Source: a virus. Taken from it: DNA of 64,000 nt. Shown piece after piece: positions 41,366 to 57,026 of this stretch; position 1 is the first letter of the stretch, and every line of letters starts with the position of its first letter. The notes under the pieces were generated by a model that had not been told where the DNA came from, did not search any database, and saw only the letters and a list, made by a program, of their open reading frames with translations. The stretch is from positions 1-64,000 of IMG/VR virus record IMGVR_UViG_3300046648_000213. One strand, 5' to 3'. The position numbers and the translations under genes are program-made.

Positions 41366-41709
41366 TGCCGTCCGCTCCCATCGCACACGCGGCAGGCGCT
41401 GTTTGCGTAAAGCGGAAGGCCGTCGACGAGGGCTTGGCGCTCGAAACGTGTGCCGCCGCACGCAGCGCAGGCCACAAATGGCTTGCCAGCTTCGTCTGCT
41501 GCTTGATCGATGACATGTTTGGCGCTGATTGCGGCCAATACACCTTTCAGAGAGCGCTCAGCGGCATGGCGAGAGACTCTTTTGGCGTGAATTTGGTGCG
41601 GAGAAGCCTGGACACTGCCAATGTCGCCCACGATTGGGGCAACACTGTCCATTGAAGGGTCGAAGTCAGGCTCGAGGAGCGCCTCGTGACCGTGGAAGTT
41701 GTCTTCCAT
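41359..41709 (-). CDS. Zinc-knuckle protein at the head of the late operon
   Basis: A 116-residue protein whose C-terminal third has C-A-A-C-G-G-T then C-R-V-C-D-G-S-G-R. This is two C-x-x-C-x-G pairs like the zinc fingers of DnaJ and of phage Q-type antiterminators. The N-terminal part includes an H-A-A-E-R-S-L-K-G-V-L-A-A-I helix. It overlaps the HTH gene upstream by 44 bp and the next gene by 7 bp. A role in late transcription or antitermination would explain terminators inside the late region, but this is inference. Confidence 0.5.
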   Translation of the reverse strand: MEDNFHGHEALLEPDFDPSMDSVAPIVGDIGSVQASPHQIHAKRVSRHAAERSLKGVLAAISAKHVIDQAADEAGKPFVACAACGGTRFERQALVDGLPLYANSACRVCDGSGRQC

Positions 41710-42085
41710 CTTGTTCTTGTCCCAATGTCTTGACCATCCGATAGACCTGTCGAGTGGAAACCTCCAACTCTTCGGCAGCTTTCTCTATGGTCATGGTGCC
41801 TTTCAGCACTCTAATTATTGTTTGGCGCTGAACTTGACGCTTTTGGGCGACCCTCTCTCGGTCTAGGACCTTCTGAGATGGAGCTCTCGTCAAATTTCTA
41901 GCCTTCATCAACCTGCTCAAATGCCGCTCAGTGACACCAAGCATTCTAGCCGCTTCTGTGCGGCTTATCTGCTTGGTCGAATAGGCTTCCAGTACCGAGT
42001 CCCGTTGTTTTTCTTCTTCTGCCGAGAGTGCCCCGATTGCTGAGCCTTGCGGCTTTTTAGTCATGGCCCGGATTGTGGACGACAT
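41666..42085 (-). CDS. Tandem helix-turn-helix regulator, first gene of the leftward operon
   Basis: A 139-residue basic protein from ATG 42085. Two HTH units are visible: S-R-T-E-A-A-R-M-L-G-V-T-E-R-H-L-S-R-L around residues 42-60, and T-I-E-K-A-A-E-E-L-E-V-S-T-R-Q-V-Y-R-M further on. It is the first leftward gene beside the operator-rich divergent region, the usual place for a master regulator. It is a candidate to bind TGTCCA-N2-TGGACA. The start is uncertain: the frame is open upstream to 42262 but without a ribosome-binding site. Confidence 0.65.
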   Translation of the reverse strand: MSSTIRAMTKKPQGSAIGALSAEEEKQRDSVLEAYSTKQISRTEAARMLGVTERHLSRLMKARNLTRAPSQKVLDRERVAQKRQVQRQTIIRVLKGTMTIEKAAEELEVSTRQVYRMVKTLGQEQDGRQLPRSRGAPRA

Positions 42086-42766
42086 GGCAGGAATGGGCAA
42101 GTCCCTTTTTTCCGAGAATGTCAAAAAGTTCTGGAAAATGTCGGAAATTTCGTAGGGGAGAGGGACCCGGCGCGTCGGCGCAATGGACAGGGAAAGCCAC
42201 CCCGTCAAAGCCCCTAAACGGTCTTTGGCGCGCGCCGTGCGATGGAAAGCGTCATTGTCCATTGTCCCAATGATTCTAACGACTCAGACGGCGCACACGG
42301 CGCACACAATGGACACTGACAGCACATAGGACAGTGGATAGGACATAGGCACTGGCAGTGTCCATTGTCTAGGCACTGGCACTGGCACTGGCACTGGCAC
42401 TGGCAGCTGTCACTGCAATGGACACTGGCACTGGCACCGATCGTTAGCACTGGCATAGGCACTGGCACTGTCCATTGTCATTAAGGGTGAAAGTTGCGAT
42501 GTCCGGGAAAAATTCAGGTGAAACGGGGTAGTGTCTTTATAAAATAATTTGAATATACCTATTGCTAATGGGATTATCAGTCTTTAAAATAGAGCCTGTA
42601 GTTGGTAGTTAGCTGTAGGCGGGATTAGGCAAAGCGCCTAGTCCATGCGGGCGAAAGCGCCGCGCGCCGTGTTCTCTAACAATTTAGCCGATTTACTTAC
42701 CTTGCATTAGGCATGCCCTAATGTAAAGGGCATGCCATAACTCAACTTTTATAGGAAGTTTCAGAT
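42086..42766. promoter_or_regulatory. Divergent control region with five TGTCCATTG half-operators
   Basis: 680 bp without a clear gene, between the leftward and rightward operons. TGTCCATTG or its complement CAATGGACA occurs at 42256, 42307, 42359, 42416 and 42469, in alternating orientation at 43-57 bp spacing. On the minus strand a TTGACA box lies near 42118. On the plus side an AT-rich stretch (TTTATAAAATAATTTG, about 42536) and two GGCATGCC palindromes (42710 and 42729), one within CATTAGG/CCTAATG, precede the next gene. This probably holds the main divergent promoters. Confidence 0.6.
42372..42405. repeat. GGCACT hexamer tandem repeat
   Basis: Five or more head-to-tail copies of GGCACT, with further scattered copies to 42470. 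They are embedded between TGTCCATTG half-sites in the divergent control region. Period 6 is not coding here in a credible frame; it may act as a spacer or binding array. Confidence 0.75.
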
Positions 42767-43671: not shown

Positions 43672-43999
43672 TGTCCAATTTATCGATTGGACAGCGAAAA
43701 ACGCATAACCTGATTTTTCAGTGTCTTTTACACTGGCTTAGAGCCCCGCGCGGGGCTGTCCAATTGGACAGCCTATAGCGCGGGGCTCTATCGTTTTGTG
43801 TTTCGTTTTTTGCTGGCTGTCCAATTGGACAGCCGCGCGCGCTGCTGTCTTTTGCTGGCTGTCCAATTGGACAGCCGCACGGCGCGCGCTGCTGATGCGC
43901 TGATGCGCTGCTGATGCGCTGATGCGCTGCTGATGCGTTGATGCGCGGCACTGTCCAATTGGACAGCCGCGCCTTTTAACTTTGATAGGGAGTTTTGCT
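43672..43999 (+). promoter_or_regulatory. Operator cluster with four TGTCCAATTGGACA palindromes
   Basis: A 330-bp gap with a split site (TGTCCAAT, six bases, ATTGGACA; 43672-43692). Four perfect 14-bp palindromes follow at 43757-43770, 43818-43831, 43860-43873 and 43952-43965, each extended by GC and GC flanks. The first is itself enclosed by TAGAGCCCCGCG and CGCGGGGCTCTA (43739-43790). The next gene starts 34 bp after the last palindrome. No gene is supported in this gap. Confidence 0.7.
43888..43944. repeat. Three 19-bp tandem repeats
   Basis: GCTGCTGATGCGCTGATGC at 43888-43906 and 43907-43925, with a third copy differing by one base at 43926-43944. They lie head to tail between two TGTCCAATTGGACA palindromes. 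Confidence 0.85.
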
Positions 44000-44212
44000 A
44001 TGCGCCGTTTCTTTAGCTGGCTGGAATTTTGGGTTTTTGTTCTGGCGTCCGCCGGTGCCTTTTGGGTGTTCCTTTTCGCCACGTTGGTATTTCCAGACGT
44101 GCTGACCCGTTATCAGGTCTGCTGCACTTTGGCACTGGTCCCGACCTGTGCATGTGCCGCTTTCATCCAATTTCTGATTATCAAGGATGAGGAGCGCCGC
44201 TATGGTTGGTAA
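44000..44212 (+). CDS. Small two-span membrane protein
   Basis: A 70-residue protein from ATG 44000 behind AGGGAG. Residues about 9-29 and 36-57 are hydrophobic (F-W-V-F-V-L-A-S-A-G-A-F-W-V-F and A-L-V-P-T-C-A-C-A-A-F), followed by a short charged tail. Early membrane proteins of this size may act in superinfection exclusion; this is only a possibility. It overlaps the next gene by 11 bp. Confidence 0.65.
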   Translation: MRRFFSWLEFWVFVLASAGAFWVFLFATLVFPDVLTRYQVCCTLALVPTCACAAFIQFLIIKDEERRYGW

Positions 44213-44468
44213 GAATCCGGCGCTTCTCGAATTGGACATTCAGACACTGAATGTTGAGGCTATTCATTTGCGCGCTGACTTTGAGGCTCTGCGTGCCAAA
44301 ACGATGAATGAGCTATCCAGCGTTATGCCGACGCTGCGAGATGTGACGCGCGCGCTCGAACGCCCGACGCTCACTGACGAGAAACGCCTGATGTTGGCTG
44401 AAGTGCTGGCGCAACGTCTGGACGTTGTTCAGGACGTGATCGACAAGTTGGCAGCAGCGAAGAGATGA
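44202..44468 (+). CDS. Small helical protein, unknown
   Basis: An 88-residue protein from ATG 44202, chosen for the GAGGAGC upstream inside the previous gene. It is mainly helical (A-I-H-L-R-A-D-F-E-A-L-R, then M-L-A-E-V-L-A-Q-R-L-D-V-V-Q-D-V-I). No DNA-binding or enzymatic motif is evident. Coupled to the membrane protein. Confidence 0.6.
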   Translation: MVGKNPALLELDIQTLNVEAIHLRADFEALRAKTMNELSSVMPTLRDVTRALERPTLTDEKRLMLAEVLAQRLDVVQDVIDKLAAAKR

Positions 44469-44547
44469 GAGCGAAACGCGCTTCGGCGCGTCTGCATGTG
44501 AGGCATGCACTGACGAGCTCAGACAACTTTGATTGGGGAGTGTCCAA

Positions 44548-44898
44548 ATGGACATTGGAAACGCACAGCGCCGCGCGCTCGGTATCACGGGCGATTCTAT
44601 GTGGATGCAGCTTGGCATGACCGAAGCGCAGTTCCTTACCGCGCAGAAGCAGCACGCGCGAGATCGTGCGGATCGCTCGGCAGGCGAGCGGGCCTACAAG
44701 CTGGATCGTTACGAGGTGTCCGCGCCGATCGGCCGCATGCGCACGATGCTGCCTATCCTCAGCACGAGCGACAAAGCGACGGCGGTCGAGTTCTACGAGT
44801 CCGGCAAGCACCTGGGCTACGAGAAGAACTGGCCGGACGATCCGAAGCCACGGCAGCTGTCGAAAGGGCAGCTGCGCAAGCTGCGTAAGCGCCACTGA
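44548..44898 (+). CDS. Basic unknown protein whose start lies inside an operator
   Basis: A 116-residue protein with a basic Arg/Lys C-terminus (L-S-K-G-Q-L-R-K-L-R-K-R-H). ATG 44548 lies within TGTCCAAATGGACA (44541-44554), so a bound repressor would cover the start codon. GGGGAG lies 7 bases upstream. The basic tail suggests nucleic acid binding. No known family recognised. Confidence 0.6.
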   Translation: MDIGNAQRRALGITGDSMWMQLGMTEAQFLTAQKQHARDRADRSAGERAYKLDRYEVSAPIGRMRTMLPILSTSDKATAVEFYESGKHLGYEKNWPDDPKPRQLSKGQLRKLRKRH

Positions 44899-44908
44899 CT
44901 GAGTTCGC

Positions 44909-45012
44909 ATCAACTCAACTGAGTTGATTCGATCTCACCTCATATGTATTGGGCTCGACCCGATTCATATGACGTGAGATCATCTCGCGCCTGCTCAACT
45001 CAACTGAGTTGA
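44909..45012. repeat. Nested symmetric element with two TCAACTCA-AC-TGAGTTGA palindromes
   Basis: Two copies of a long palindrome (44909-44928 and 44995-45012; arms TCAACTCA and TGAGTTGA, AC centre) flank an inner inverted repeat. The inner repeat has GATCTCAC (44931) paired with GTGAGATC (44974-44981) and CATATG (44941) paired with CATATG (44966). The whole about 100-bp block is roughly mirror-symmetric about 44955 and ends 33 bp before the next start codon. The core TCAACTGAGTTGA also occurs upstream of parA at 1564. Confidence 0.85.
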
Positions 45013-45044
45013 TACCAACTTAACTGAAACCGAATGGAGTTTGT

Positions 45045-45260
45045 ATGAACACGAAAAATCTGAACGGCCTGACCGACGTCCGCCACATCTTGACCGACGC
45101 TCGCGGGAAGTTGGAAGAGGCGCGCGCACGGCGCCGCCACGCTGTCGCATACACGATCGTGTGCCTGGGCATCGTCGGCGCGCTGTGCGCCACCATGTTC
45201 ACGCCGCAGAATGCGCACGCCGCGCGCTCGCATCATTCGAGCGTGCGGTCGCATCACTGA
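45045..45260 (+). CDS. Small single-span membrane or secreted protein
   Basis: A 71-residue protein from ATG 45045 (GGAG upstream). A charged helix (residues 9-31) is followed by one hydrophobic segment (Y-T-I-V-C-L-G-I-V-G-A-L-C-A-T-M-F), then a short His/Ser-rich end (A-R-S-H-H-S-S-V-R-S-H-H). Likely membrane-anchored; function unknown. Confidence 0.55.
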   Translation: MNTKNLNGLTDVRHILTDARGKLEEARARRRHAVAYTIVCLGIVGALCATMFTPQNAHAARSHHSSVRSHH

Positions 45261-45261
45261 C

Positions 45262-45275
45262 TGTCCAATTGGACA
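45262..45275. promoter_or_regulatory. TGTCCAATTGGACA palindrome
   Basis: Perfect 14-bp palindrome two bases after the stop codon of the preceding gene and just before a terminator. Here it is not directly ahead of a gene, which shows that the element is not simply part of the ribosome-binding leader. Confidence 0.75.
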
Positions 45276-45281
45276 CTGACA

Positions 45282-45306
45282 AAGCCGGCGCAATGCCGGC
45301 TTTTTT
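45282..45306 (+). terminator. Intrinsic terminator
   Basis: AAGCCGGC, five-base loop, GCCGGCTT and then four more T form a classic terminator closing the small operon before the iteron region. Confidence 0.9.
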
Positions 45307-45879
45307 GCTTTTCTGCTCTCTGTCAATACCCTGAAAAATATTTTTCCGGGTCTTTTTGACACACCCCTCTGACTGACATTTCTTGCCGTTCGGGACCGAA
45401 ACCGAATCGAGTCCGCAAAATTTGACAAAATCCTCCGCATGTGCATCAACCCCGAAAAACACAAGCCCTTGTGTTTGTAACTGTATGCCGACCTTAATTA
45501 CTCTTTTCGAGTTTGGCAGCCGCTCTCCCTTACCAGACAAGAGTTTGAACCCTTCTATATTCAAATTATTAGTTAAAAAAGTAGGGTATGAGGGGGGTAA
45601 GCTCAAGTGCCTTAAAGACCGAGGACTTTCTCGTATGTGCTTGATCTAACAGGGAAAAATATTTTTCCTCACTCAGATTTTTGCTCTCTCGACCTTGGCG
45701 AACCCCCAAGGGGGTACTTTTCGGCAAGTCATTAAACAGTTGCTGTAAGTCCTTGATTTACAATGGACATTTCAACCGTGTGGCGTAACTCACACAGTCA
45801 AGTCGAAAACCATTGACTTTTGAAAACCACCTCAAAATCGTCGCTTTCCTCAATACAATCAACCACTTACGTCGAAAAA
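45307..45879. other. AT-rich non-coding stretch next to the iterons
   Basis: About 570 bp, visibly more AT-rich than the rest, with two copies of the perfect palindrome GAAAAATATTTTTC (45333-45346 and 45653-45666). Plus-strand and minus-strand open frames exist but neither has a convincing start or composition. With the adjacent direct repeats it resembles the AT-rich melting zone of a replication origin. That role is inference. Confidence 0.5.
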
Positions 45880-46068
45880 TCGATGCATGGGTGTTGTAAA
45901 TCGATGCATGGGTGTTGTAGCTCGATGCATGGGTGTTGTGGGGTCGATGCATGGGTGTTGTGACCTCGATGCATGGGTGTTGTGGGTCGATGCATGGGTG
46001 TTAGGCCCCTCGATGCATGGGTGTTTGCCTATTTTTTGTGCAAAAACGGCTCGATGCGTGGGTGTTGC
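45880..46068. repeat. Array of eight 18-bp iterons (candidate replication origin)
   Basis: TCGATGCATGGGTGTTGT begins at 45880, 45901, 45922, 45944, 45966, 45987 and 46010 (21-23 bp period), with a diverged eighth copy at 46051. The first five are identical across all 18 bp; later copies vary at the 3 prime end. A spacing of two helical turns in direct orientation is typical of initiator-bound iterons in theta-replicating plasmids and of lambda O sites. AT-rich DNA flanks the array on the left and a regulator gene lies to the right. Confidence 0.9.
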
Positions 46069-46132
46069 GCGTGTTCTTTTGCACACGACGTTTTCTGTCT
46101 GAAATAGACGTCCCTTTTGGCGGAAAATGTCG

Positions 46133-46138
46133 TACAAT
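46133..46138 (+). promoter_or_regulatory. Candidate -10 element of the Cro-like gene
   Basis: TACAAT about 65 bp upstream of the start codon. No good -35 box is at the right distance, so it may need an activator or be regulated through the adjacent iterons. The context GAAAATGTC-N-TA-N-AATC is shared with 55190-55207. Confidence 0.3.
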
Positions 46139-46203
46139 CTCAGCCTGAATCGCAAAACGTCTTCAACTAGAATTGAAACCGAAAGGTGTATGGAGAAATT
46201 TCA

Positions 46204-46449
46204 ATGACTGACAATGCTTCGATGAGCCCGATCGAGCGCGCCGTGAACATCATCGGCGGCCCGAGCGAAACGGCACGCAAGATGACCCTCGCCACCGGCA
46301 AGCTGTTCTCGCCGAGCGTGGTTTGGCATTGGGTAGCGAAAGATCACGTGCGCGTGGAATTCCTGACGGCGCTGTCCAGGCTGAGCGGCATTCCGGTGCT
46401 CGAGTTCGTTGACCACCTCGCCTACACGAGCGAGAAGGCGACCGTATGA
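46204..46449 (+). CDS. Cro/YdaS-like DNA-binding regulator
   Basis: An 81-residue protein. Residues 12-65 follow the YdaS/Cro-type HTH pattern: A-V-N-I-I-G-G-P-S-E-T-A-R-K-M, a turn, S-P-S-V-V-W-H-W-V, then a helix F-L-T-A-L-S-R-L-S-G-I. Proteins of this class repress phage early promoters or act as antitoxin-like Cro proteins. It is the first gene after the iterons and overlaps the antirepressor-like gene by 4 bp. It could bind the iterons, the TGTCCA palindromes or its own promoter. Confidence 0.7.
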   Translation: MTDNASMSPIERAVNIIGGPSETARKMTLATGKLFSPSVVWHWVAKDHVRVEFLTALSRLSGIPVLEFVDHLAYTSEKATV

Positions 46450-47315
46450 TCGTTGCGCCAATCGAGAAGGTGATCCCGTTCCGGTACGCGCCGGACACAA
46501 TGGACGGCCTCTTCGAATGTCTCACTGTCCAATTGGACAACGAGATCATCGTCCCGGCGCGTGCGCTGTTCGAGGTGCTCGGCACGGACTGGCCGACCTC
46601 GCGCAAGATGCTGCTCGGGCGTGGCGTTGAATTCCGCAAGCATCCGGTGAAGGCGGGCAGGCGCGTGGGCCTGGTCGATTGCATGACGCTGCCCGACGTG
46701 ACAGCCGCGCTCGACAAGATGAACCCGAACAAGGCACCGTCCGACGAGCTCAAGATGCGCCGGCATCTGTTCAAGGTCGGTCTGGTGCGCGAGATCGAGA
46801 ACGGTTGGGGATTGAATATCGCTGCAAAATCCGCGGACCCGGACACGATCATAGTGACGGACACGTTGGACGGCGCGGACCTGTTCCGGCGCGACGCATC
46901 GCGGCTCGGCATGCATCCGAACCACATCGGCGCCGTGGTGCGCACGGGCGGCTTTATCGAAGTCGTGAAGCCGCAGGTGGCGACGCGCGTGAAGCGCCTG
47001 ATGCAGCCGAAGGGCGCACCGGACTCGTTCGTCGAGATCATCGAGCAGCGCGCGTCGCGCGAGACGATCCAGCTTCCGCTGGACGCTTACGCACCGGGCG
47101 AGCTCGAGCGGCGCATGCGGGACGCCAAACCCATCGTGCCGGCGGACATATTCGAGCGTAAGGCGTCGGACGACCCACTTGCCCAACGCCGTGTGTTGCC
47201 GCGCCGGCCGGACGTGATCGACCTGAACCCGACGCTGGACGATATGAATCCGGACCGGTGGAAGTTCGTGATGCTGCCGGAAACCGTTGAGAAGAAGGTG
47301 TGGGACTGTGAGTGA
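46446..47315 (+). CDS. Antirepressor-like protein, or replication initiator candidate
   Basis: A 289-residue protein. Its N-terminal about 90 residues (V-Q-L-D-N-E-I-I-V-P-A-R-A-L-F-E-V-L-G-T-D-W) resemble the N-terminal domain of P22-type antirepressors. The C-terminal two thirds is basic and mixed alpha/beta without a recognised motif. Coupled (ATGA) to the Cro-like gene, it fits a repressor/antirepressor pair. But the gene lies 380 bp from the iterons, and no other Rep candidate is nearby, so an initiator role cannot be excluded. A TGTCCAATTGGACA palindrome lies in the coding sequence at 46526. Confidence 0.45.
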   Translation: MIVAPIEKVIPFRYAPDTMDGLFECLTVQLDNEIIVPARALFEVLGTDWPTSRKMLLGRGVEFRKHPVKAGRRVGLVDCMTLPDVTAALDKMNPNKAPSDELKMRRHLFKVGLVREIENGWGLNIAAKSADPDTIIVTDTLDGADLFRRDASRLGMHPNHIGAVVRTGGFIEVVKPQVATRVKRLMQPKGAPDSFVEIIEQRASRETIQLPLDAYAPGELERRMRDAKPIVPADIFERKASDDPLAQRRVLPRRPDVIDLNPTLDDMNPDRWKFVMLPETVEKKVWDCE

Positions 47316-47317
47316 AC

Positions 47318-47357
47318 ACTGACCAGCTTGCGAGGCTGGTCAGTGTCCATTTGGACA
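47318..47357 (+). promoter_or_regulatory. Hairpin plus TGTCCATTTGGACA module
   Basis: ACACTGACCAGC pairs with GCTGGTCAGTGT right after the stop codon. The downstream arm continues into the palindrome AGTGTCCATTTGGACACT (47342-47359). A leader CAACCTACG-TGGAAG follows. Nearly the same module (hairpin, AGTGTCCATTTGGACACTGCA, CAACCTACGGAGGAAG) recurs at 52170-52235. Confidence 0.6.
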
Positions 47358-47394
47358 CTGCAACCTACGTTGGAAGTCACATATGGAGGTAACT

Positions 47395-47766
47395 ATGCTC
47401 GAAGCGCTGCGCACTGTGCGCCGCCTCACGGACGAAGGGATGAAGCGCGAGATCGCTGAAGCGCTCGTCGAAGAGATCAATGCGGGGATGAAAGACAACC
47501 TCGTAACGAAGTCGGACCTGAAGACTGAACTTGCCCTGCTGCGTGCCGATATTAAGGCGGACCTCTCGGAGCTCAAGTCGGAACTCGTCGGCACGCGCTC
47601 CGACCTGCGTGCTGAGATCAGGGAAGGGAAGAGCGATTCGCGCTCGTACATCGACGGCGTGCTGTCTGACTTCAAGACGGCGATCACGGTGCGCGTCGCG
47701 TTCCTGATGGTCGCGCAGCTTTTCGCGATGGCCGGGATCGGCATGTATCTGAAGCACGGCGGCTGA
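47395..47766 (+). CDS. Coiled-coil protein with a C-terminal membrane anchor
   Basis: A 123-residue protein from ATG 47395 behind a perfect GGAGGT. Residues about 10-85 are a continuous coiled coil (L-K-T-E-L-A-L-L-R-A-D-I-K-A-D-L). The last 20 residues form one membrane span (V-A-F-L-M-V-A-Q-L-F-A-M-A-G-I-G). This matches DUF1640/CCDC90-like proteins common in phage and bacterial genomes, of unknown role. Confidence 0.65.
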   Translation: MLEALRTVRRLTDEGMKREIAEALVEEINAGMKDNLVTKSDLKTELALLRADIKADLSELKSELVGTRSDLRAEIREGKSDSRSYIDGVLSDFKTAITVRVAFLMVAQLFAMAGIGMYLKHGG

Positions 47767-47767
47767 C

Positions 47768-47902
47768 ATGCTTGCGTGGATTCTCCGCCGCCGCTACTAC
47801 GCGTTGCGGTATAGCGCACATGTGACAGGCGATCCGATCGTGGCTAACGCCGCCGATATTCTGGAGGCGCGGCTCGACCGCCTGCTAGTCGCTCACGACT
47901 AG
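47768..47902 (+). CDS. 44-residue unknown protein
   Basis: Begins one base after the previous stop codon (TGACATG). Sequence M-L-A-W-I-L-R-R-R-Y-Y-A-L-R-Y, then a helix I-L-E-A-R-L-D-R-L-L-V-A-H-D. It has a basic amphipathic start and is followed within 30 bp by a terminator. The ribosome-binding site is weak (GGCGG), and expression would rely on coupling. Confidence 0.5.
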   Translation: MLAWILRRRYYALRYSAHVTGDPIVANAADILEARLDRLLVAHD

Positions 47903-47931
47903 CCTCAACACAATCTGTAGTGCAATTTCAC

Positions 47932-47953
47932 AGCCCGCTTCGGCGGGCTTTTT
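47932..47953 (+). terminator. Intrinsic terminator with a TTCG loop
   Basis: AGCCCGC, TTCG, GCGGGCT and a T-run. Closes the regulator operon. A TGTCCAAATGGACA palindrome follows at 47956-47969. Confidence 0.92.
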
Positions 47954-47955
47954 CG

Positions 47956-47969
47956 TGTCCAAATGGACA
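47956..47969. promoter_or_regulatory. TGTCCAAATGGACA operator
   Basis: Directly after the terminator and 27 bp before the start codon at 47996, followed by the standard leader CAACTTTAATCGGAG. It contains an in-frame alternative ATG at 47963 that would add 11 residues to the next protein. Confidence 0.7.
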
Positions 47970-47995
47970 ACAACTTTAATCGGAGTAGAACAAAA

Positions 47996-48712
47996 ATGAA
48001 CAAGCACTTTCGCGTCTTCCACGCTCCCGAAACCTTCGACCCGAACAACATGGGTCCGGCGCAGCAGTACGATTGCATGGCGATCGACGAGACGGCTGCG
48101 CGTCAGCAGGTGAACGCCAAGTTCCCGAAGCACGAGATTCGCATCGTGTTCGAACGCAACCGGTTCAAGGATGCGCTGTTCATCCAGTCGGCGTGCAACC
48201 CGGTGGCGATCACGACCGCGCTGGCCGACGCGATGCGCATGTGCCGCGCCGAGAACATGGACACGTCGGCGATCTGCAACGACCCGGCCGTGCGCCTCAT
48301 CGTGCACCAGCTTGCCCACCTGACGAACCAGTACGAACTCACGAACTCCATGAGCGCGTACAGCCATGCGACGCAGATGTGCGAGCTCGGGCAAGACGGC
48401 AAGCAGTTCCGTCTCCCGAAGAAGCTCCCGATGCTCGACCTTAGAAAGGAAGAGGCGGGCGGCGGCCAATACATCTATGCCTGCGCCTGGGCGACGGCCA
48501 GCGGCGGATCGTGCGACTGGTGGTATCGCCAGCAAGACGCGTGGGACCACGCGCAGTCGCTGGCACTGAATGAGAACTTCTCCGACACCGAAGTCTGCTT
48601 CTTCGAGGTGATGGTCGACACGTCGACGGTCATGCGCGGCAACGTGGTCGACGTGCTCGACGGTGCGTATGCAGACCACCTCGCGAAGCACACGGTGGCA
48701 GCTGATGCCTAA
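47996..48712 (+). CDS. Unknown early protein
   Basis: A 238-residue soluble protein starting at ATG 47996 (CGGAG upstream). The N-terminal part M-N-K-H-F-R-V-F-H-A-P and the W-W-Y-R-Q-Q-D-A-W-D-H-A segment suggest a mixed alpha/beta fold. Four or more cysteines are scattered without a clear zinc motif. It heads a long chain of overlapping small genes (48705 onward). No family recognised. Confidence 0.6.
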   Translation: MNKHFRVFHAPETFDPNNMGPAQQYDCMAIDETAARQQVNAKFPKHEIRIVFERNRFKDALFIQSACNPVAITTALADAMRMCRAENMDTSAICNDPAVRLIVHQLAHLTNQYELTNSMSAYSHATQMCELGQDGKQFRLPKKLPMLDLRKEEAGGGQYIYACAWATASGGSCDWWYRQQDAWDHAQSLALNENFSDTEVCFFEVMVDTSTVMRGNVVDVLDGAYADHLAKHTVAADA

Positions 48713-48866
48713 GTTCAAGGTCGGGCAGACCGTGCGCTACATCAGCTACGGCGTCGAGAAGACGGAAGTGATCGTCCGCATCGGCGAGCGTAGCGGAATC
48801 CTTTTCTTCTCCGGCGGCAGGTTCCTGTATCCGGAGAGCGTTATCGAAATCGTGGAGAAGTCATGA
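48705..48866 (+). CDS. 53-residue unknown protein
   Basis: A small beta-rich protein, M-P-K-F-K-V-G-Q-T-V-R-Y-I-S-Y-G then R-I-G-E-R-S-G-I-L-F-F, resembling an SH3-like or KOW-like barrel. Overlaps its neighbours by 8 and 4 bp. Unknown function. Confidence 0.6.
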   Translation: MPKFKVGQTVRYISYGVEKTEVIVRIGERSGILFFSGGRFLYPESVIEIVEKS

Positions 48867-49117
48867 ACGAACAACAAATGCTGGAACTGCTGCGCGCCAC
48901 GGTGCGCGCCAAGCTCGCTTATTGGGACGAACTGCGCAAGCTCGAGCTCGCGCTGACGAACGGCGGCGAGTTCAGCGACAAGGCGAACGACCAAGTGATC
49001 GCGGACATCGACACACTTGCCGCCGGCCTGCCGCTCGACAACAACACCGACGCGATCACGAGTGTCCATTTGGACAACCTGAAGCACGCCGTCGCCGAAC
49101 ATCCGATCGAGGACTGA
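48863..49117 (+). CDS. Small helical protein
   Basis: An 84-residue protein in an ATGA overlap with the previous gene. Helix-rich first half (M-L-E-L-L-R-A-T-V-R-A-K-L-A-Y-W), acidic second half. A TGTCCATTTGGACA palindrome (49064-49077) lies in its coding region, where it encodes S-V-H-L-D-N. Unknown function. Confidence 0.55.
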   Translation: MNEQQMLELLRATVRAKLAYWDELRKLELALTNGGEFSDKANDQVIADIDTLAAGLPLDNNTDAITSVHLDNLKHAVAEHPIED

Positions 49118-49118
49118 C

Positions 49119-49715
49119 ATGAGCACGAACATCACCGTCATGCCGACAATGGACATGACCAGCGACGAGCGCCACGTCTTCTACGCGGTCGAATGGCTCA
49201 CGGACGATGGACACCATGCCGTCGACGTCTATCACTACGAGGAAAGCCGCGACAGCCACGCCAAGGGGCTGAGCAAAGCGAAGGTCGTGGTCTACGACAT
49301 CGTGTGCCCGTTCAGCGCCGGCCAGGAGGAAGCGGAAGACTTCGCCCGCGACAACGCATACCTGAAGCAGCCGGCCGCCGTGCATCAGGCCGACCGCCGC
49401 GAGATGGAGATCGCGATCGTCACGAAGCTCGTCAACACGGCGATCCACCTCGGCTACGAGGTCAGCGTGTACGACGGCGAAGCGTGGCCGATCAAGCACA
49501 GCACCTTCGCGCTGAACGTGCTGGCCGAGATGTTCGCAACCTCTGAAGAGTCGCTGCACTTTCACAGCGGCAAGCGCTACATCGGCGTCGTCGATCTCGT
49601 GTACGGCAACGAGGGCTGGACTGTGATCGCCGACAACACGGAAAGCGCAGAGATGACCGCCATCCTCGCGCCGGCCGAAGAACTTGCCCGCCAACTGGAG
49701 TTTGAAAACGCATGA
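49119..49715 (+). CDS. Unknown acidic early protein
   Basis: A 198-residue protein with many Asp and Glu, predicted mixed alpha/beta. Regions V-F-Y-A-V-E-W-L-T-D-D-G-H-H and A-I-H-L-G-Y-E-V-S-V-Y-D-G-E are noticeable, the latter common in small phage proteins. No enzymatic residues stand out. ATGA overlap with the next gene. Confidence 0.55.
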   Translation: MSTNITVMPTMDMTSDERHVFYAVEWLTDDGHHAVDVYHYEESRDSHAKGLSKAKVVVYDIVCPFSAGQEEAEDFARDNAYLKQPAAVHQADRREMEIAIVTKLVNTAIHLGYEVSVYDGEAWPIKHSTFALNVLAEMFATSEESLHFHSGKRYIGVVDLVYGNEGWTVIADNTESAEMTAILAPAEELARQLEFENA

Positions 49716-50104
49716 ACCCGATCAAGATCACGCTCGAGACGGAACTGGACGACAGCTGGATGCAGGAGATGTTCGCGATGATCGATATAGGAGTCGCGTA
49801 TTGGGCGACGCCCAACGTCGAGCGCTTCGTCGACTATCGCGAGACGAACGGCGACCGCACGGTCGCGCTGCACATCATCGAGGATGAGGTCGTGCGCGGC
49901 CAGGATCACCCGCGCGAGCTCGCTATCGACGCAGCGGTAATCAACCGCGGCATCGAGCGCATCCTGCAGGGCGATGTGCACGCATACCCGGACGAGATCG
50001 GCGAGATCGTCAAGTCGCTGAACACCGGCGAGAACCTGATCGGCGCCGAACTTGCCGACACGATCGTGCAGGCCGGCCTGTACGGCGAACTCATTTGGGG
50101 GTGA
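49712..50104 (+). CDS. Unknown early protein
   Basis: A 130-residue acidic protein, M-N-P-I-K-I-T-L-E-T-E-L, with D-I-G-V-A-Y-W-A-T near residue 28 and R-G-I-E-R-I-L-Q-G-D in the second half. Similar G-I-x-Y-W-A patterns occur in the protein at 51268. Function not recognised. Confidence 0.55.
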   Translation: MNPIKITLETELDDSWMQEMFAMIDIGVAYWATPNVERFVDYRETNGDRTVALHIIEDEVVRGQDHPRELAIDAAVINRGIERILQGDVHAYPDEIGEIVKSLNTGENLIGAELADTIVQAGLYGELIWG

Positions 50105-50105
50105 C

Positions 50106-50525
50106 ATGAAGCTGTTCATGATGTGTGGCCGCATCAGCGGTTGGGATGACGATCTCGCGATGCTTGTGGCAGCTGAGGACGACGCCGAAGCGTGCGCCAA
50201 GTTCCGGCGCGAGCTTCTCGACATTGACGGAAGCCAGTGCCCGCCGGACTGCGAGGAGCCGGAGCTCTACATCCACCAGACCGATCTCGTCGGCGCGATC
50301 ATGCCGGACGGCAAGGTGCAGACGTCGTTCGGCGGGGGCGCGGCGCCGGAGCCGGAACCGAAGCACTTCACGGTGCAGATCACCGAGTCGAGCCAGTATC
50401 AGGTCGATATCCTGTGGCCGACGCGCGAGGGTGTGGAGGACGAAGCGCGCCGGCTGCTGGTCGAAGGCGGAAAGGACGCGTTCCTGACCGATTGCAACGA
50501 ACTCTCGATCAAGGTGCACGAATGA
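50106..50525 (+). CDS. Unknown early protein with two repeated-fold halves
   Basis: A 139-residue acidic protein. The N-terminal half (M-K-L-F-M-M-C-G-R-I, then a helix with E-A-C-A-K-F-R-R-E-L) and the C-terminal half (H-F-T-V-Q-I-T-E-S-S, then E-D-E-A-R-R-L-L) each look like strand-helix units of the kind seen at 50941 and in the C-terminus of the protein at 53132. Linked by a Gly/Pro linker. Unknown role. Confidence 0.55.
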   Translation: MKLFMMCGRISGWDDDLAMLVAAEDDAEACAKFRRELLDIDGSQCPPDCEEPELYIHQTDLVGAIMPDGKVQTSFGGGAAPEPEPKHFTVQITESSQYQVDILWPTREGVEDEARRLLVEGGKDAFLTDCNELSIKVHE

Positions 50526-50944
50526 AGGTCAAGACGAAGGACCTGAGCGGCGCTGCGCTCGACTACGCCGTCGCGACGTGCGAAGGACTTCCGCTGCGTC
50601 TCGATCCTATGGGTTTTCGCAGGGACGCGCCAAAGTCGTCGCAAGCCGGATGGTGGGTGTGGGACGAGAAACCCGGCGTGTTGAAGATGGTCACGCAGTT
50701 AGTCGGGAAGGACTATTCGCCTTCGACAAATTGGGCGCAGGGCGGGCCGATCATCGAGATCAAGCGCATCGACGTTATCTCGGACCCGAACGGATCGGCC
50801 GGCTGGATGGGGCGCAACTATGTCGACTGGCGAGAGGTCCAGCGTTTCGGCGCGACGCCGCTTGAAGCAGCGATGCGCTGCTACGTGAGCGCCACGTATG
50901 GCGAGGAGCTCGACATCCCCGACGAACTCATGGAGAAAGCATGA
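50522..50944 (+). CDS. NinX-like phage protein (DUF2591 type)
   Basis: A 140-residue protein. The motifs K-D-L-S-G-A-A-L-D-Y-A-V-A near the start, Y-S-P-S-T-N-W-A-Q-G-G-P-I-I in the middle and T-P-L-E-A-A-M-R-C-Y-V towards the end are the defining blocks of the DUF2591/NinX family. The family is known from lambdoid nin regions and has no established biochemical role. ATGA overlaps on both sides. Confidence 0.8.
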   Translation: MKVKTKDLSGAALDYAVATCEGLPLRLDPMGFRRDAPKSSQAGWWVWDEKPGVLKMVTQLVGKDYSPSTNWAQGGPIIEIKRIDVISDPNGSAGWMGRNYVDWREVQRFGATPLEAAMRCYVSATYGEELDIPDELMEKA

Positions 50945-51108
50945 AGAAGTTCACCGTGACGATCGAGGAGGTGATCCGCCACACGCTCACCGTCGAGGCT
51001 GACAGCGAAGAAAAGGCGAGCGAGATCGCAATGGACACTCTCCTCCAGCAGGGCGAGGACGCATTCAACTCGTCCATCGAAGACCGCAGCGTCTACATGG
51101 TGCTCTGA
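50941..51108 (+). CDS. 55-residue strand-helix protein
   Basis: M-K-K-F-T-V-T-I-E-E-V-I-R-H-T-L-T-V-E-A, then a helix S-E-E-K-A-S-E-I-A-M. This strand-strand-helix form is common in tiny phage proteins. It overlaps the preceding stop codon (ATGA) and the next start (TGATG), which supports it as a real gene. Confidence 0.6.
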   Translation: MKKFTVTIEEVIRHTLTVEADSEEKASEIAMDTLLQQGEDAFNSSIEDRSVYMVL

Positions 51109-51302
51109 TGTGGCAGATACGACACGCACACACGATGGAGGACCTCGGGACATACGTGACGACCAATGCGGCGCTCGCCGCATTGAAAGCCGATGGGTTT
51201 CGGGTCTACGCAACAATCCGCACGAAGGGAGTTATCTACGTCGTGCCTGACGAAAGGAAGAAGAAAGATGGCAACGAAGACGGAAGTGAAGCTGCACAGT
51301 GA
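51108..51302 (+). CDS. 64-residue unknown protein
   Basis: M-W-Q-I-R-H-A-H-T-M-E-D then V-T-T-N-A-A-L-A-A-L-K-A-D-G-F, ending in a Lys/Glu-rich tail. Starts in a TGATG overlap. The last 35 bp overlap the next gene in another frame. Unknown function. Confidence 0.5.
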   Translation: MWQIRHAHTMEDLGTYVTTNAALAALKADGFRVYATIRTKGVIYVVPDERKKKDGNEDGSEAAQ

Positions 51303-51507
51303 CGGCGCGCTCTCAATCATGGAAGCGCACGACAAGGCAGGGATCGCGTACTGGTTCAACGCGATGGGGCACGAGCGTCGCTCGGGGACGGTGCTGGCGA
51401 TGTTCGTCGACGGCGACCAGGCGGACATGGAAATCACCCTGTGGCCGAACGGGACGTGGGACGCTAAGACGCGAATCGTCGTGGGTGATGAGGTGACCGG
51501 GGAGTAA
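51268..51507 (+). CDS. 79-residue unknown protein
   Basis: Starts at ATG 51268 behind AGGAAG located inside the previous gene. Contains A-G-I-A-Y-W-F-N and W-P-N-G-T-W-D with strands between; a small beta-rich protein. Followed by the operator at 51517. Confidence 0.6.
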   Translation: MATKTEVKLHSDGALSIMEAHDKAGIAYWFNAMGHERRSGTVLAMFVDGDQADMEITLWPNGTWDAKTRIVVGDEVTGE

Positions 51508-51516
51508 GAAAGCCGC

Positions 51517-51530
51517 TGTCCAATTGGACA
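51517..51530. promoter_or_regulatory. TGTCCAATTGGACA operator
   Basis: Perfect palindrome with GC/GC flanks, 10 bp after a stop codon and 22 bp before the start at 51552; followed by ACTTACGGAGGAAG. Confidence 0.75.
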
Positions 51531-51551
51531 GCACGACTTACGGAGGAAGTG

Positions 51552-51818
51552 ATGCTTCACGAATACAACGGCTATTACGACTGCAAGGTTGTGAAGGTGT
51601 ACGCGGAGAATCAAACTGAGGCGTTGCGACTTGCCATTGCGGCAATCAACCCGCCGAAGCGCAAGGCATACATGGTCGGCGTTGCGCTGACCCGGTGGAA
51701 CGTGGAGCTCCCTTCTGACGAGGAGAAAGAGAGTGAGAATGAAATTCAGCGAGATTCTCGACGAGTATCTCGACCTGCGCGAAAAGGGTCCGGACGAGAG
51801 TTCGGGCTACAGCGATAA
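51552..51818 (+). CDS. Unknown early protein
   Basis: An 88-residue frame starting M-L-H-E-Y-N-G-Y-Y-D-C-K-V-V at ATG 51552 behind GGAGGAAG. The first 60 residues form a credible strand-helix domain (A-E-N-Q-T-E-A-L-R-L-A-I-A-A). The last 27 (Arg/Ser-rich) overlap the next gene in another frame and may not be conserved. Confidence 0.55.
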   Translation: MLHEYNGYYDCKVVKVYAENQTEALRLAIAAINPPKRKAYMVGVALTRWNVELPSDEEKESENEIQRDSRRVSRPARKGSGREFGLQR

Positions 51819-51894
51819 GGCGTACTACACGCGAATGAACGAACTTAGCGAGGCGATGGACATGCTCGCGCCGGGGGAGATCACCTTCGAATGA
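51739..51894 (+). CDS. 51-residue helical protein
   Basis: M-K-F-S-E-I-L-D-E-Y-L-D-L-R-E-K-G-P, then M-N-E-L-S-E-A-M-D-M-L. This amphipathic two-helix form recurs as a tiny protein in many phages. It starts inside the previous gene (GAGAGTGAGA upstream) and ends in an ATGA overlap with the next gene. Function unknown. Confidence 0.6.
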   Translation: MKFSEILDEYLDLREKGPDESSGYSDKAYYTRMNELSEAMDMLAPGEITFE

Positions 51895-52166
51895 AGTGGA
51901 TTGAACTCATCACGAAGCTGCGCGCCGAGCCGCGCGCAGCGCACGTGTTCGTGGTCAGCCCGCACAACCAAGCTGACCTGCATCCGGTCGGCACCGTGCG
52001 CAGCGTGATCGAACGGCTCGGCATTCTCGAAGAGACGCCGCTCGAGCGCGTGCAGATCGTCACCGACGAGCGGCGCGGCGAGTATCGCTGGATCAAGTCG
52101 GTGCTCAGCTGGCGCACCGGTGTCACCGAAATCCCATGTAACTCGGTGTACCTCACCGTCGAGTGA
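51891..52166 (+). CDS. 91-residue unknown protein
   Basis: ATGA-coupled start. M-K-W-I-E-L-I-T-K-L-R-A-E-P, then V-F-V-V-S-P-H-N-Q-A-D and W-I-K-S-V-L-S-W-R. Mixed alpha/beta. No recognised family. Followed by a hairpin-operator module. Confidence 0.55.
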   Translation: MKWIELITKLRAEPRAAHVFVVSPHNQADLHPVGTVRSVIERLGILEETPLERVQIVTDERRGEYRWIKSVLSWRTGVTEIPCNSVYLTVE

Positions 52167-52169
52167 ACA

Positions 52170-52209
52170 CCAGCTTGCCCTGCGGGGCAAGCTAGTGTCC
52201 ATTTGGACA
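52170..52209 (+). promoter_or_regulatory. Hairpin plus TGTCCATTTGGACA module
   Basis: AGCTTGCCC pairs with GGGCAAGCT after the stop codon. AGTGTCCATTTGGACACTGCA (palindrome 52196-52209) and CAACCTACGGAGGAAG follow. Close copy of the module at 47318-47390, indicating duplication of an intergenic unit. Confidence 0.6.
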
Positions 52210-52236
52210 CTGCATCATCAACCTACGGAGGAAGTG

Positions 52237-52638
52237 ATGAGCAAAGTATTGAGCGAGCGCCGGAAGGCGGACCGCGAAGAGATGGCGAAGCGCGTCGAGG
52301 CGCTGCTGAACGAGCTCGGCGTGGCGTATGAGCGCAGCGAGCACGACCGCGAGATCAACATCGACGTGCACGGCCCGCGCGGCCTGTGCGTGCTGGTCGA
52401 CTTCGACGGCGCGTCGTGGCAGCCGGACGTCCATGTGCTGTCGTGGCATATCCGCGAGCGCGGCGCGCAGCTGAGCGACGCGCGCTTCGGCGGCAACGTG
52501 AACCCGCATCACAAGGCCAAGGCGACCTACGTCGCGTATGGATTCGACAACCTGATGTACAGCCTGCGCCGCGGCCTCGAGCTCGCGATCAGCGGCAAAG
52601 CATTCCTCGACTACGAAGAACAACAAAAGGCGGCCTGA
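52237..52638 (+). CDS. Unknown early protein
   Basis: A 133-residue protein with a basic N-terminal helix (S-E-R-R-K-A-D-R-E-E-M-A-K-R) and a central W-Q-P-D-V-H-V-L-S-W-H. The C-terminal Y-G-F-D-N-L-M-Y-S-L-R-R-G-L-E is helical. Ribosome-binding site GGAGGAAG. No recognised motif. Confidence 0.55.
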   Translation: MSKVLSERRKADREEMAKRVEALLNELGVAYERSEHDREINIDVHGPRGLCVLVDFDGASWQPDVHVLSWHIRERGAQLSDARFGGNVNPHHKAKATYVAYGFDNLMYSLRRGLELAISGKAFLDYEEQQKAA

Positions 52639-52640
52639 CA

Positions 52641-53135
52641 ATGGAAACCCCCTTCAAGAAGAAGCTCTTCCTCTCCGAGTCCGAACACGTTGGCGTCGGC
52701 CTGCTGCTGAAAGCGCCAGGCGAGCAGGTGATCTGCGAGTTCGATCAGACGCCCGACATGGCGTTCCATGCCGAGTACGTGAAGGACGCGGTGAACGCGT
52801 ACCCGGACCTGCTTGCCGAGCGTGAGCAGTTGAAGGCCGTGCTGATGCACGCGATCGAGCAGCAGAAGCAGGCGCAGCGCGTGCACGAGATCATCGCCGA
52901 TCTCGCGTTCGATCTCGGTCACAGGTGGCGCGACATGCCGGTCGCAAGCTGCCAAGGGATCATGGATCACGTCGGCGGCTCGCGCGGCTTGATGGACTGG
53001 CTCGTCGGCTGCGCGCACGAGTTCGACACGCTGTGGGAAGCGAAGCCGGAGGACGAGCAGGAAGACTACATCGGCGAGGTCGATGCGTTCGCGAACAGGA
53101 AGTTCGCCGAGCTCAAGCTGGAGGCGCTCGCGTGA
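52641..53135 (+). CDS. Unknown early protein with a helical centre
   Basis: A 164-residue protein: strand-rich start, a long helix (L-L-A-E-R-E-Q-L-K-A-V-L-M-H), then a helical C-terminal part with G-H-R-W-R-D-M and acidic residues. It resembles generic phage host-takeover proteins only in size and charge. Its stop codon overlaps the GTG of the next gene. Confidence 0.55.
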   Translation: METPFKKKLFLSESEHVGVGLLLKAPGEQVICEFDQTPDMAFHAEYVKDAVNAYPDLLAEREQLKAVLMHAIEQQKQAQRVHEIIADLAFDLGHRWRDMPVASCQGIMDHVGGSRGLMDWLVGCAHEFDTLWEAKPEDEQEDYIGEVDAFANRKFAELKLEALA

Positions 53136-53764
53136 AGACCCACTTCAAGATTGTCGTGATCGACGAGACGGATCACTGGATCGATGACATCCAGAAGCGC
53201 GCCGGCGCCGTGTGGGTTGCGTACATGTTCGACTCGCTGCGCCACGTGCACGCCTGCGAGATCACGCCGTCGTACGAACTGTGGCCACTCTACGCGACGG
53301 CGTGGAACCGCACCGGAAACGATGAGGTCGACGAGGAGCTCGAGTCGGAGATCATCCAGTGGGTCGGCAGCGACGTCGAGTATCACCACGTCAGCAGCAT
53401 CGAGCGGCTGCCGGCCGCGCGCTTCTACGACTGCGGCGAGGAAGAGCACGATGACGACGAGACGTGGGAAGAGATTCGAGAGCGAGTCGAGGACCACTAT
53501 CGCGGCAACGTGGCGATCCAGTTCCCGGCAGGCTATGACGGCCCACCGCCGCCGCCCGTGCTGCACGAGTACGCATTCGACGTGAAGCTGTTCGCGTCGC
53601 TGCGCGTGAAGGCCGCCACGGAGGAAGAGGCGCGCGAGAAACTGCGCTCCGCGCTCGATTGTGCCGATACACACTTCGGGCAGTTGGACGGCGAGCCGCT
53701 GACGGCGGAAGCGTCGATCGACGGTGAGCCCGAGCTATATGAAATCGATGGAGAACCAACGTAA
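53132..53764 (+). CDS. Unknown acidic early protein
   Basis: A 210-residue protein starting at GTG 53132 (overlap GTGA). It is very acidic in the middle (E-E-H-D-D-D-E-T-W-E-E). The C-terminal Y-A-F-D-V-K-L-F-A-S-L-R-V-K-A-A-T-E-E-E-A-R-E-K-L is the strand-helix unit also found at 50941. Unknown role. Confidence 0.5.
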   Translation: MKTHFKIVVIDETDHWIDDIQKRAGAVWVAYMFDSLRHVHACEITPSYELWPLYATAWNRTGNDEVDEELESEIIQWVGSDVEYHHVSSIERLPAARFYDCGEEEHDDDETWEEIRERVEDHYRGNVAIQFPAGYDGPPPPPVLHEYAFDVKLFASLRVKAATEEEAREKLRSALDCADTHFGQLDGEPLTAEASIDGEPELYEIDGEPT

Positions 53765-54123
53765 TGCAGAAAATCGAAGCGGTAAAGACCAGCGACGGCC
53801 GGCTGTTCGAGACGAACGAAGAAGCCGCCAAGCACGAGATCGAGGTCGCTGTGCCGGCGCGCATCGACGAACTCTGGAACGAGTACATCGCGCAGCGTGA
53901 TCGCCCGCACCTGCACAACGTGAAGGAGTTCGTCCTCACGGCGGCAGAGGACCTGAACCGGGTCACGGCTACGGTGAAGCGCGCGAAGCAGGTGCTCGAG
54001 CCGAGCCGCCAGCAGTTCGAGGCAAAGCGCCAGGGACACACGTACTGCAAGCACTGCGACAGCGCGATAGCCTCGCATGAAAAGATTGAAGGCAAGTGGT
54101 ATTGCCGAAAGGAGAACCTGTGA
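53764..54123 (+). CDS. Small protein with a C-terminal zinc-ribbon-like end
   Basis: A 119-residue protein: a helical N-terminus resembling a short domain I-x-T-S-D-G-R-L-F-E-T-N-E-E-A, then a helix. The last 28 residues are H-T-Y-C-K-H-C-D-S-A-I-A-S-H with a later C, a partial zinc ribbon (three Cys plus His). ATG overlaps the previous stop. Possibly DNA or RNA binding. Confidence 0.55.
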   Translation: MQKIEAVKTSDGRLFETNEEAAKHEIEVAVPARIDELWNEYIAQRDRPHLHNVKEFVLTAAEDLNRVTATVKRAKQVLEPSRQQFEAKRQGHTYCKHCDSAIASHEKIEGKWYCRKENL

Positions 54124-54386
54124 GCAGGGAAATTCAGCTGTATTCCCCGAGCGGCAAGCGCATCGTGGGCACCGCCGAGACGATCCCCGGCGTGGCCTCG
54201 GTCGCGTACTTCGAGCGCGACGAAAGCGGTGAACTCGTGCCGGTGCACGGCGGCGGCACCGACGTGAATTGGGACGGCCAGGAGACGATGCTCGGCGCCG
54301 ACGATCAGATCATCGTCGTCGACGAGGACGACGTGGAGTGGTCGCTCTCGGACTGCAACGAGGCAGAGGAAGAGGTCGAGGAGTGA
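54120..54386 (+). CDS. Small acidic beta-rich protein
   Basis: An 88-residue protein with GTG 54120 chosen because it overlaps the previous stop codon (GTGA). Beta-rich start (L-Y-S-P-S-G-K-R-I-V-G-T-A-E) and very acidic end (E-A-E-E-E-V-E-E). Unknown; acidic enough to be a nucleic acid mimic, with no further evidence. Confidence 0.55.
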   Translation: MSREIQLYSPSGKRIVGTAETIPGVASVAYFERDESGELVPVHGGGTDVNWDGQETMLGADDQIIVVDEDDVEWSLSDCNEAEEEVEE

Positions 54387-54532
54387 AGCACCTTGCCTGT
54401 GTGCTGTTGGGCGCGGCGCTGGTGGTCGCGCTCGACTACGTGACGGAGCGCGCCGCGGATCACCCGGTCTGCGAGCGCGTATCGGTTCAATCTACCGAGT
54501 GTCCAACTGGACACTCAAGCAAGCGCGTGTGA
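54383..54532 (+). CDS. 49-residue membrane-anchored peptide
   Basis: GTG 54383 in a GTGA overlap. One hydrophobic segment (L-A-C-V-L-L-G-A-A-L-V-V-A-L) at the N-terminus, then a polar tail with two cysteines. Likely a signal-anchor peptide. The palindrome TGTCCAACTGGACA (54500-54513) lies in the last codons. Confidence 0.5.
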   Translation: MKHLACVLLGAALVVALDYVTERAADHPVCERVSVQSTECPTGHSSKRV

Positions 54533-54541
54533 GGTCAACGA

Positions 54542-54697
54542 ATGATGCTGTGCGGACGTTGTGGGCAAGCTGGAATCGAATGGAAAGGTCCCCTGAGCGC
54601 CCTAACCCATACAGAATGCCCACACTGTGGCGGTAATAATTGCCAGCAGGAAACAGAACCTGACGATGATCGAAAGGCAACGGACACAATTCCGTAA
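54542..54697 (+). CDS. 51-residue zinc-ribbon protein
   Basis: M-M-L-C-G-R-C-G-Q and later C-P-H-C-G-G give two C-x-x-C pairs 22 residues apart, a compact zinc ribbon. The tail is acidic. Such tiny zinc proteins may bind DNA, RNA or RNA polymerase. It starts 9 bp after the preceding stop codon with AGGTCAACGA upstream. Confidence 0.55.
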   Translation: MMLCGRCGQAGIEWKGPLSALTHTECPHCGGNNCQQETEPDDDRKATDTIP

Positions 54698-54879
54698 TGT
54701 GCTGGTAAGTATCTGACGCGAAAACGGAAATTCTTTCGAGACCGTCGTCTGATCTGACGTAAATTTCCGATTGGGACACCTTTTGTCCATTACGCCCAGT
54801 TACAATGGCTCCCACTTTTACCTAATAGAGGCAGTAGAAACTGCCGCATTTGCCGGGTGTCCGTAAAGGGATTGTAATA
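54698..54879 (+). promoter_or_regulatory. AT-richer gap, probable promoter region
   Basis: About 180 bp without a gene on the plus strand. Contains TTACAATGG (-10-like, near 54800) downstream of TTTTGTCCATTACG, which includes a TGTCCATT half-site. The combination suggests a regulated promoter for the gene at 54880, but no clean -35/-10 pair with 17-bp spacing was found. Confidence 0.4.
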
Positions 54880-55128
54880 ATGTTCAGCTACACGTATGCG
54901 AAGGGTTTCGTCAAGTGTCTGGAAGAAGTCGGCAAGCTCGGCCACAACATCGGGGCCTGCAAGGAGATCGCCAACCTGACCTTTGGCGAGGATGTATTGG
55001 AGACGCGGGCTGTGAAGGACAAGGTGTATATCCGGTTCACCGATCGCTCCGCCGTGGAGTGCTCACCGACCGAAGCAGGTGAGCGCTTCGTCGCGATGGA
55101 CCCGCCGGCACCGCCGACGTATCACTGA
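54880..55128 (+). CDS. 82-residue unknown protein
   Basis: Starts at ATG 54880 (AAAGGGATTGTAATA upstream). M-F-S-Y-T-Y-A-K-G-F-V-K-C-L-E-E-V-G, then K-V-Y-I-R-F-T-D-R-S-A-V. Mixed alpha/beta. Followed by a strong terminator, so it is probably a single-gene unit. Confidence 0.6.
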   Translation: MFSYTYAKGFVKCLEEVGKLGHNIGACKEIANLTFGEDVLETRAVKDKVYIRFTDRSAVECSPTEAGERFVAMDPPAPPTYH

Positions 55129-55144
55129 GTAGCAGCACCGTTCA

Positions 55145-55172
55145 AAAAGGCCCGCTTTTGCGGGCCTTTTTC
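55145..55172 (+). terminator. Intrinsic terminator
   Basis: AAAAAGGCCCGC, TTTT, GCGGGCCTTTTT: a symmetrical stem with A-run and T-run, able to act in both directions. Confidence 0.92.
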
Positions 55173-55236
55173 ATGTCCCAACAGGACGAAAATGTCATAG
55201 AATCCTTCACCACAAAAACAATAAAGGTGAAGAGCC

Positions 55237-55853: not shown

Positions 55854-55876
55854 ACGAGACATTTAATGTCCCAACC

Positions 55877-55903: not shown

Positions 55904-55918
55904 CTTTAAGAGGAAGTT

Positions 55919-57008: not shown

Positions 57009-57026
57009 CTGAAAAGGAAAGTGAAA

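Follow-up and report, generated by a model that had tools for sequence, protein, structure and literature searches.

P1-type phage-plasmids combine an iteron-based plasmid origin with a partition cassette and a separate lytic origin, and in phage lambda the iterons of the origin lie inside gene O. In iteron origins, the iterons are combined with DnaA boxes and with an unwinding element that is rich in AT (PMC4980987), and phage-plasmids whose replication and partition genes resemble those of plasmids are well known (PMC10879196; PMC4490671). Among mycobacteriophages, the integration cassette has been exchanged for a partition cassette, in some cases together with RepA; most members use an integrase (PMC7157519).

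Here we analysed a window of 64,000 nucleotides (positions 1 to 64,000 of the 83,209-bp IMG/VR virus record IMGVR_UViG_3300046648_000213), in which a first-pass annotation had placed the plasmid origin of a tailed phage at an array of short direct repeats, referred to below as array A. Phage genes for a terminase, a portal, a major head protein, and tail J were found in the record, together with plasmid replication and partition genes (TrfA and ParA). The ParA partition ATPase is encoded at positions 1706 to 2359 on the + strand (phrog_164 E 2e-33; Pfam AAA_31 E 5e-14) and forms part of a plasmid module with trfA and a second array, array B. In the ParA/ribbon-helix-helix cassette that had been proposed, ParA was therefore confirmed, whereas its 107-aa partner (2356 to 2679, + strand) is of the ribbon-helix-helix type as judged by eye and has no Pfam match; it matches, at 40-51% over about 50-60 residues, proteins encoded near parA or trfA on several other virus contigs. 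In agreement with the earlier remark that no integrase was visible, searches of the record for a tyrosine integrase (PF00589) and a serine resolvase (PF00239) gave no match, while the controls were positive. An 80-codon ORF across the record ends, itself without a relative, was the only sign of circularity. The record also encodes a protein with an H-NS C-terminal domain (57021 to 57371; PF00816 E 1.3e-9), possibly a phage-encoded silencer.

The TrfA initiator gene lies outside the window, in the last 19 kb of the record and 37 kb from array A (record positions 81921 to 82757, − strand), and its product matched PF07042 at E 1.1e-25, above the Pfam cut-off. Directly upstream of trfA is array B, seven copies of TTCGTGGATYGAGGAAC at record positions 82803 to 82949 with 21-23 bp spacing. 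Read in the trfA sense, three of these copies carry CTCAATCCACGAA and the others CTCGATCCACGAA, and CTCAATCCACGAA is identical at 12 of 13 bases to CTCAAACCACGAA, the iteron found upstream of trfA on two Burkholderia plasmids. A tblastn search detected TrfA relatives on 614 plasmids, the best of them (49.6% identity) on Burkholderia glumae p947s3p, where ParA and ParG-like genes likewise sit beside trfA. The locus thus resembles the TrfA iteron replicons of IncP plasmid RK2 and the Burkholderia TrfA plasmids in having a TrfA initiator with iterons directly upstream, in the same orientation and 21-23 bp apart. Unlike those replicons, it belongs to a tailed phage that encodes its own DNA polymerase and primase, and its iterons form a single block, whereas those of two of the plasmids are split into two oppositely oriented blocks. 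TrfA is encoded on 20 IMG/VR contigs; most of these have short-repeat arrays upstream of the gene, and in many ParA is encoded close by. Two small − strand ORFs downstream of trfA (record positions 81397 to 81924) are 73-90% identical to trfA-adjacent ORFs in contigs L125-L127 and apparently belong to a travelling TrfA module.

We therefore regard array B and trfA, with high confidence, as a putative plasmid replicon. Because the record combines TrfA and array B with ParA and gave no integrase or resolvase match, it very probably represents a tailed phage that lives in its host as a plasmid, to judge from its gene content, and its plasmid origin is most probably array B. The proposal that this phage is inherited as a plasmid was thus borne out by ParA, its ribbon-helix-helix-like partner, the lack of an integrase match, and a TrfA with iterons of its own. 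The assignment of the plasmid origin to array A was not supported, since TrfA and its family-matching iterons are both located beyond the window, and the sequence of these iterons is not that of array A. The phage-plasmid proposal was right in kind, but the first-pass annotation most probably chose the wrong array as the plasmid origin and the wrong gene as its initiator. In the literature covered, which included few subscription journals, the terms TrfA and phage-plasmid co-occurred in passing only, and a TrfA phage-plasmid may be undescribed there.

Array A was nevertheless present where it had been reported. Motif counts and alignment of the copies showed that the 16-mer TCGATGCATGGGTGTT occurs exactly seven times, starting at 45880, 45901, 45922, 45944, 45966, 45987, and 46010, and an eighth time with one mismatch (TCGATGCGTGGGTGTT, at 46051), giving eight direct repeats between 45880 and 46066 on the + strand. 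Dinucleotide-shuffled versions of the window contained a mean of 0.43 and a maximum of 2 matches, compared with 8 in the real sequence, and there were no other copies elsewhere in the record. The original description held in part: the 18-mer (ending in GTTGT) said to occur in seven copies is exact in the first five, but copies 6 and 7 diverge past the 16-mer, and the reported 21-23 bp spacing applies to the first six steps (21, 21, 22, 22, 21, and 23 bp) but not to the last, which is 41 bp. An ORF at 45045 to 45260 and an ATG at 46204 delimit a 944-bp gap that contains the array, and because of this location and because some of the steps are not divisible by 3, we consider it noncoding. Its core is invariant in seven of the eight copies, while the spacers are free in both sequence and length. 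A core that stays fixed while its spacers vary is expected of a selected protein-binding site, and the pattern points to array A being a predicted binding site of this kind rather than a fresh tandem duplication. Iteron origins have several direct repeats, each about 17-22 bp and helically phased, a pattern to which array A conforms. A megablast search of the region against phages and plasmids gave no match, nor did a distant-mode search of array A against plasmids; six single copies of TCGATGCATGGGTGTT in IMG/VR occur in other contexts and were taken as chance.

Two further readings would tie array A to the plasmid module. Both arrays are spaced at 21-23 bp, as would be expected if array A offered TrfA additional sites through which copy number is controlled, but the alignment of the array A and array B consensus sequences was no better than that of shuffles. 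TrfA is therefore not expected to bind array A, and we find a role in copy-number control scarcely credible. The phage has a ParA cassette, and many-copy short direct repeats are typical of centromeres, so array A might instead be bound by the small ParA partner. This is quite improbable: the array is about 39 kb or more from parA, its 16-bp core is long for the ribbon-helix-helix-like type of partner, related cassettes have short repeats directly upstream of parA (as seen by eye), and ACTC boxes lie upstream of parA in this record.

The surroundings of array A share several features with iteron origins. The AT-rich DNA noted beside the array is a stronger feature than had been claimed: by nearest-neighbour energies, no 600-bp stretch of the 83-kb record melts more easily than positions 45301 to 45900, which are a candidate unwinding region, and the lowest-stability 200-bp window of the whole record, which starts at 45490, also lies beside the array. 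The lowest GC, 0.417, was also at this stretch. Both stability minima place an easily melted region next to array A. The two GAAAAATATTTTTC palindromes described earlier were found, at 45333 and 45654, and each AT palindrome reads GAAAAATATTTTTCC (45333 to 45347 and 45654 to 45668). A motif scan for TTWTNCACA found four sites in the record, two of which, both TTTTGCACA, bracket repeat 8 in inverted orientation, one on its left (46037 to 46045, − strand) and one on its right (46077 to 46085, + strand). Two such DnaA-like sites within the 1 kb of array A, compared with 0.077 expected, represent an enrichment (P 0.002, composition shuffles); the boxes differ from the strict TTATCCACA, and the inverted repeat that they form could be used by a regulator too.

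Array A also sits at the hinge of the genome, the point at which transcription switches from the leftward structural genes to the rightward early genes. The AT skew has its minimum near 42-46 kb, close to the array, but does not decide the position of the origin because the minimum coincides with the switch in gene orientation, which can itself cause skew. Further tandem repeats (GGCACT-type; GCGCTGCTGATGCGCTGAT) were found at 42372 to 42470 and 43886 to 43946, and the second easiest-melting region of the record lies at about 42443 to 42640. The sequence TCAACTGAGTTGA has only three copies in the record, two at 44.9-45.0 kb (44900 to 45020), which surround the nested inverted repeat GATCTCACCTCATATG ... 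CATATGACGTGAGATC, and one at 1564 to 1576, upstream of parA; these two control regions may share a regulator.

What did not fit an iteron origin was the search for a cognate initiator beside the array. The first gene past array A (46204 to 46449, + strand) encodes an 81-aa small helical protein, modelled as five helices with a pLDDT of 58. It had been called Cro-like and is possibly a helix-turn-helix (YdaS/Cro-like) protein, but its profile matches were weak (YdaS E 0.044; carph-isopro E 8.5e-4, below the cut-off). No Rep_3 protein (PF01051) was found in this genome by a search that was positive in four relatives, Phage_rep_O had no match near array A, and no initiator of another kind was recognised there. 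The next gene (46446 to 47315, + strand) encodes the 289-aa protein that the first-pass annotation had favoured as the initiator of a plasmid origin at array A. Adjacency and the origin-like anatomy of the region speak for that proposal, but the protein is an orphan with no relative in any library searched, and the structure prediction suggested as a check gave a single-sequence fold with a pLDDT of 38, which is unusable. With TrfA and family-matching iterons present elsewhere in the genome as well, we judge it very improbable that array A is a plasmid origin driven by the 46446 protein. A resemblance of its residues 34 to 95, seen by eye, to the P22-antirepressor N-terminal domain gained no support from Pfam, which returned nothing at E 10. 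The initiator of array A could conceivably belong to a new family.

The main rival to an origin is a regulatory role for the array. Array A ends about 140 bp ahead of the first early gene, a TACAAT-like −10 element is visible by eye between the two, and a phage regulator, for example the 46204 to 46449 product or a helix-turn-helix protein encoded at 41666 to 42262, might bind the eight repeats cooperatively to control the first early promoter. A promoter scan, however, gave nothing above chance, and nonpalindromic direct repeats spaced by two helical turns, with 600 bp of low stability next to them, are seen more typically at origins. The genome does contain another repeated, regulatory-looking site, the palindrome TGTCCAATTGGACA, with 12 exact copies (0.0001 expected) and 20 at no more than one mismatch. 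Most of these copies (43757 to 62797) are in the early region, and they often precede a gene start by 7-67 bp; from this arrangement TGTCCAATTGGACA looks like the operator of a phage regulator. Its existence lends some plausibility to array A as an operator, but for a dimeric helix-turn-helix protein the palindrome is the likelier site. In two relatives, L081 and L017, the early block likewise begins with a repeat array, and neither TrfA nor Rep_3 was found in their examined sequence. We consider an operator function for array A possible but doubtful.

The genome collection provided only two distant archaeal-MAG contigs. A TerL alignment yielded 80 loci of one phage family, many of them in 80-93 kb records. 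In four of these relatives (L056, L064, L066, and L067), a Rep_3 initiator (E about 1e-35) is encoded at the hinge. The two whose gene order was read, L056 and L067, have parA, a small partner gene, 22-bp iterons, and Rep_3 in succession, and in all four an exact TTATCCACA or its complement lies beside the hinge array. These replicons resemble array A in their site between the terminase and early genes, their iterons, and their AT-rich DNA; they differ from it in the adjacent Rep_3 (and ParA where read), in having another repeat, and in their DnaA box, to which only weakly DnaA-like boxes correspond at array A. The presence of Rep_3 iteron replicons in four relatives implies that array A occupies the place where this phage family carries plasmid replicons. 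Few of the long relatives have an array at the hinge, and most are without a comparable one, so array A does not represent a lytic origin common to the whole family. According to the first-pass annotation, absence of the repeats from close relatives that still replicate would count against an origin; such an absence was observed in part, among distant relatives only.

Short-repeat arrays unrelated to array A, without a recognised initiator, were also seen upstream of TerL in L085 (2531 to 2752), L081 (2874 to 3014), L079 (2772 to 3097), and L017 (4417 to 4578). A scan of IMG/VR with the pattern GCATGGGTGTT found only one other tandem array, on contig L143, where the repeats sit within the gene for a lambda-O-type protein (PF04492 E 1.3e-6). 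Like the lambda origin, array A is an early-region set of iterons with easily melted DNA next to it, and the lambda-O-type contig L143 shares GCATGGGTGTT with it; unlike the lambda origin, array A is noncoding, and no O protein was found. L143 is a weak lead only, because arrays of such a period may be common and one shared 11-mer can be chance.

TrfA was not found in 26 long relatives, by a search that was able to detect it because the same model matches G002 and the protein of this record. The TrfA module therefore looks like a later arrival. Together with the iterons and Rep_3 found at this hinge in four relatives, this raises the question of whether array A is the relic of an earlier replicon at the hinge, one that lost its rep gene upon acquisition of the TrfA module. 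We think this unlikely: seven identical 16-bp cores suggest continuing selection rather than decay, array A is unlike the iterons of the relatives, and tblastn with two Rep_3 proteins revealed no rep remnant in the hinge, only a chance-level match near it (E 8.7).

Taken together, these results favour a phage-plasmid with two unrelated iteron arrays, in which array A may be a second origin, most likely either the lytic one or one associated with the hinge, the site of a replicon in relatives. We put the probability that array A is an origin at about 0.5, because the iterons, the melting profile, and the DnaA-like boxes fit whereas the missing initiator does not; the TrfA replicon already present in the genome also counts against it. 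By precedent from its family, TrfA bound to array B would melt the AT-rich DNA next to it and load the host helicase, and the plasmid copies would be distributed by ParA and its small partner. At array A, an as yet unrecognised phage protein would bind the repeats, and the 600-bp AT-rich stretch would open. More tentatively, the two sequence-unrelated arrays might divide the work, with TrfA and array B used for plasmid inheritance and array A, with an initiator of an undescribed family, for lytic replication. Such a phage would resemble P1-type phage-plasmids in its iteron plasmid origin, its partition cassette, and possibly a separate second origin, but it differs from them in its initiator family and ParA partner, and its second array is only a candidate origin.

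A tyrosine integrase was present in three relatives, so that this phage group, like the mycobacteriophages with RepA/parABS prophages, is split between an integrase and a partition cassette; in the mycobacteriophages, no repeat motifs were identified beside repA, and the cassette is parABS rather than ParA with a ribbon-helix-helix-like partner (PMC7157519). Our findings indicate that this family of about 85-kb siphophages swaps plasmid replicons as modules: four relatives have Rep_3 and iterons at the hinge, the phage studied here has TrfA and its iterons at another place, and other members have an integrase. With two iteron arrays that can be separated, a phage would allow a direct test of whether plasmid and lytic replication differ in site and initiator.
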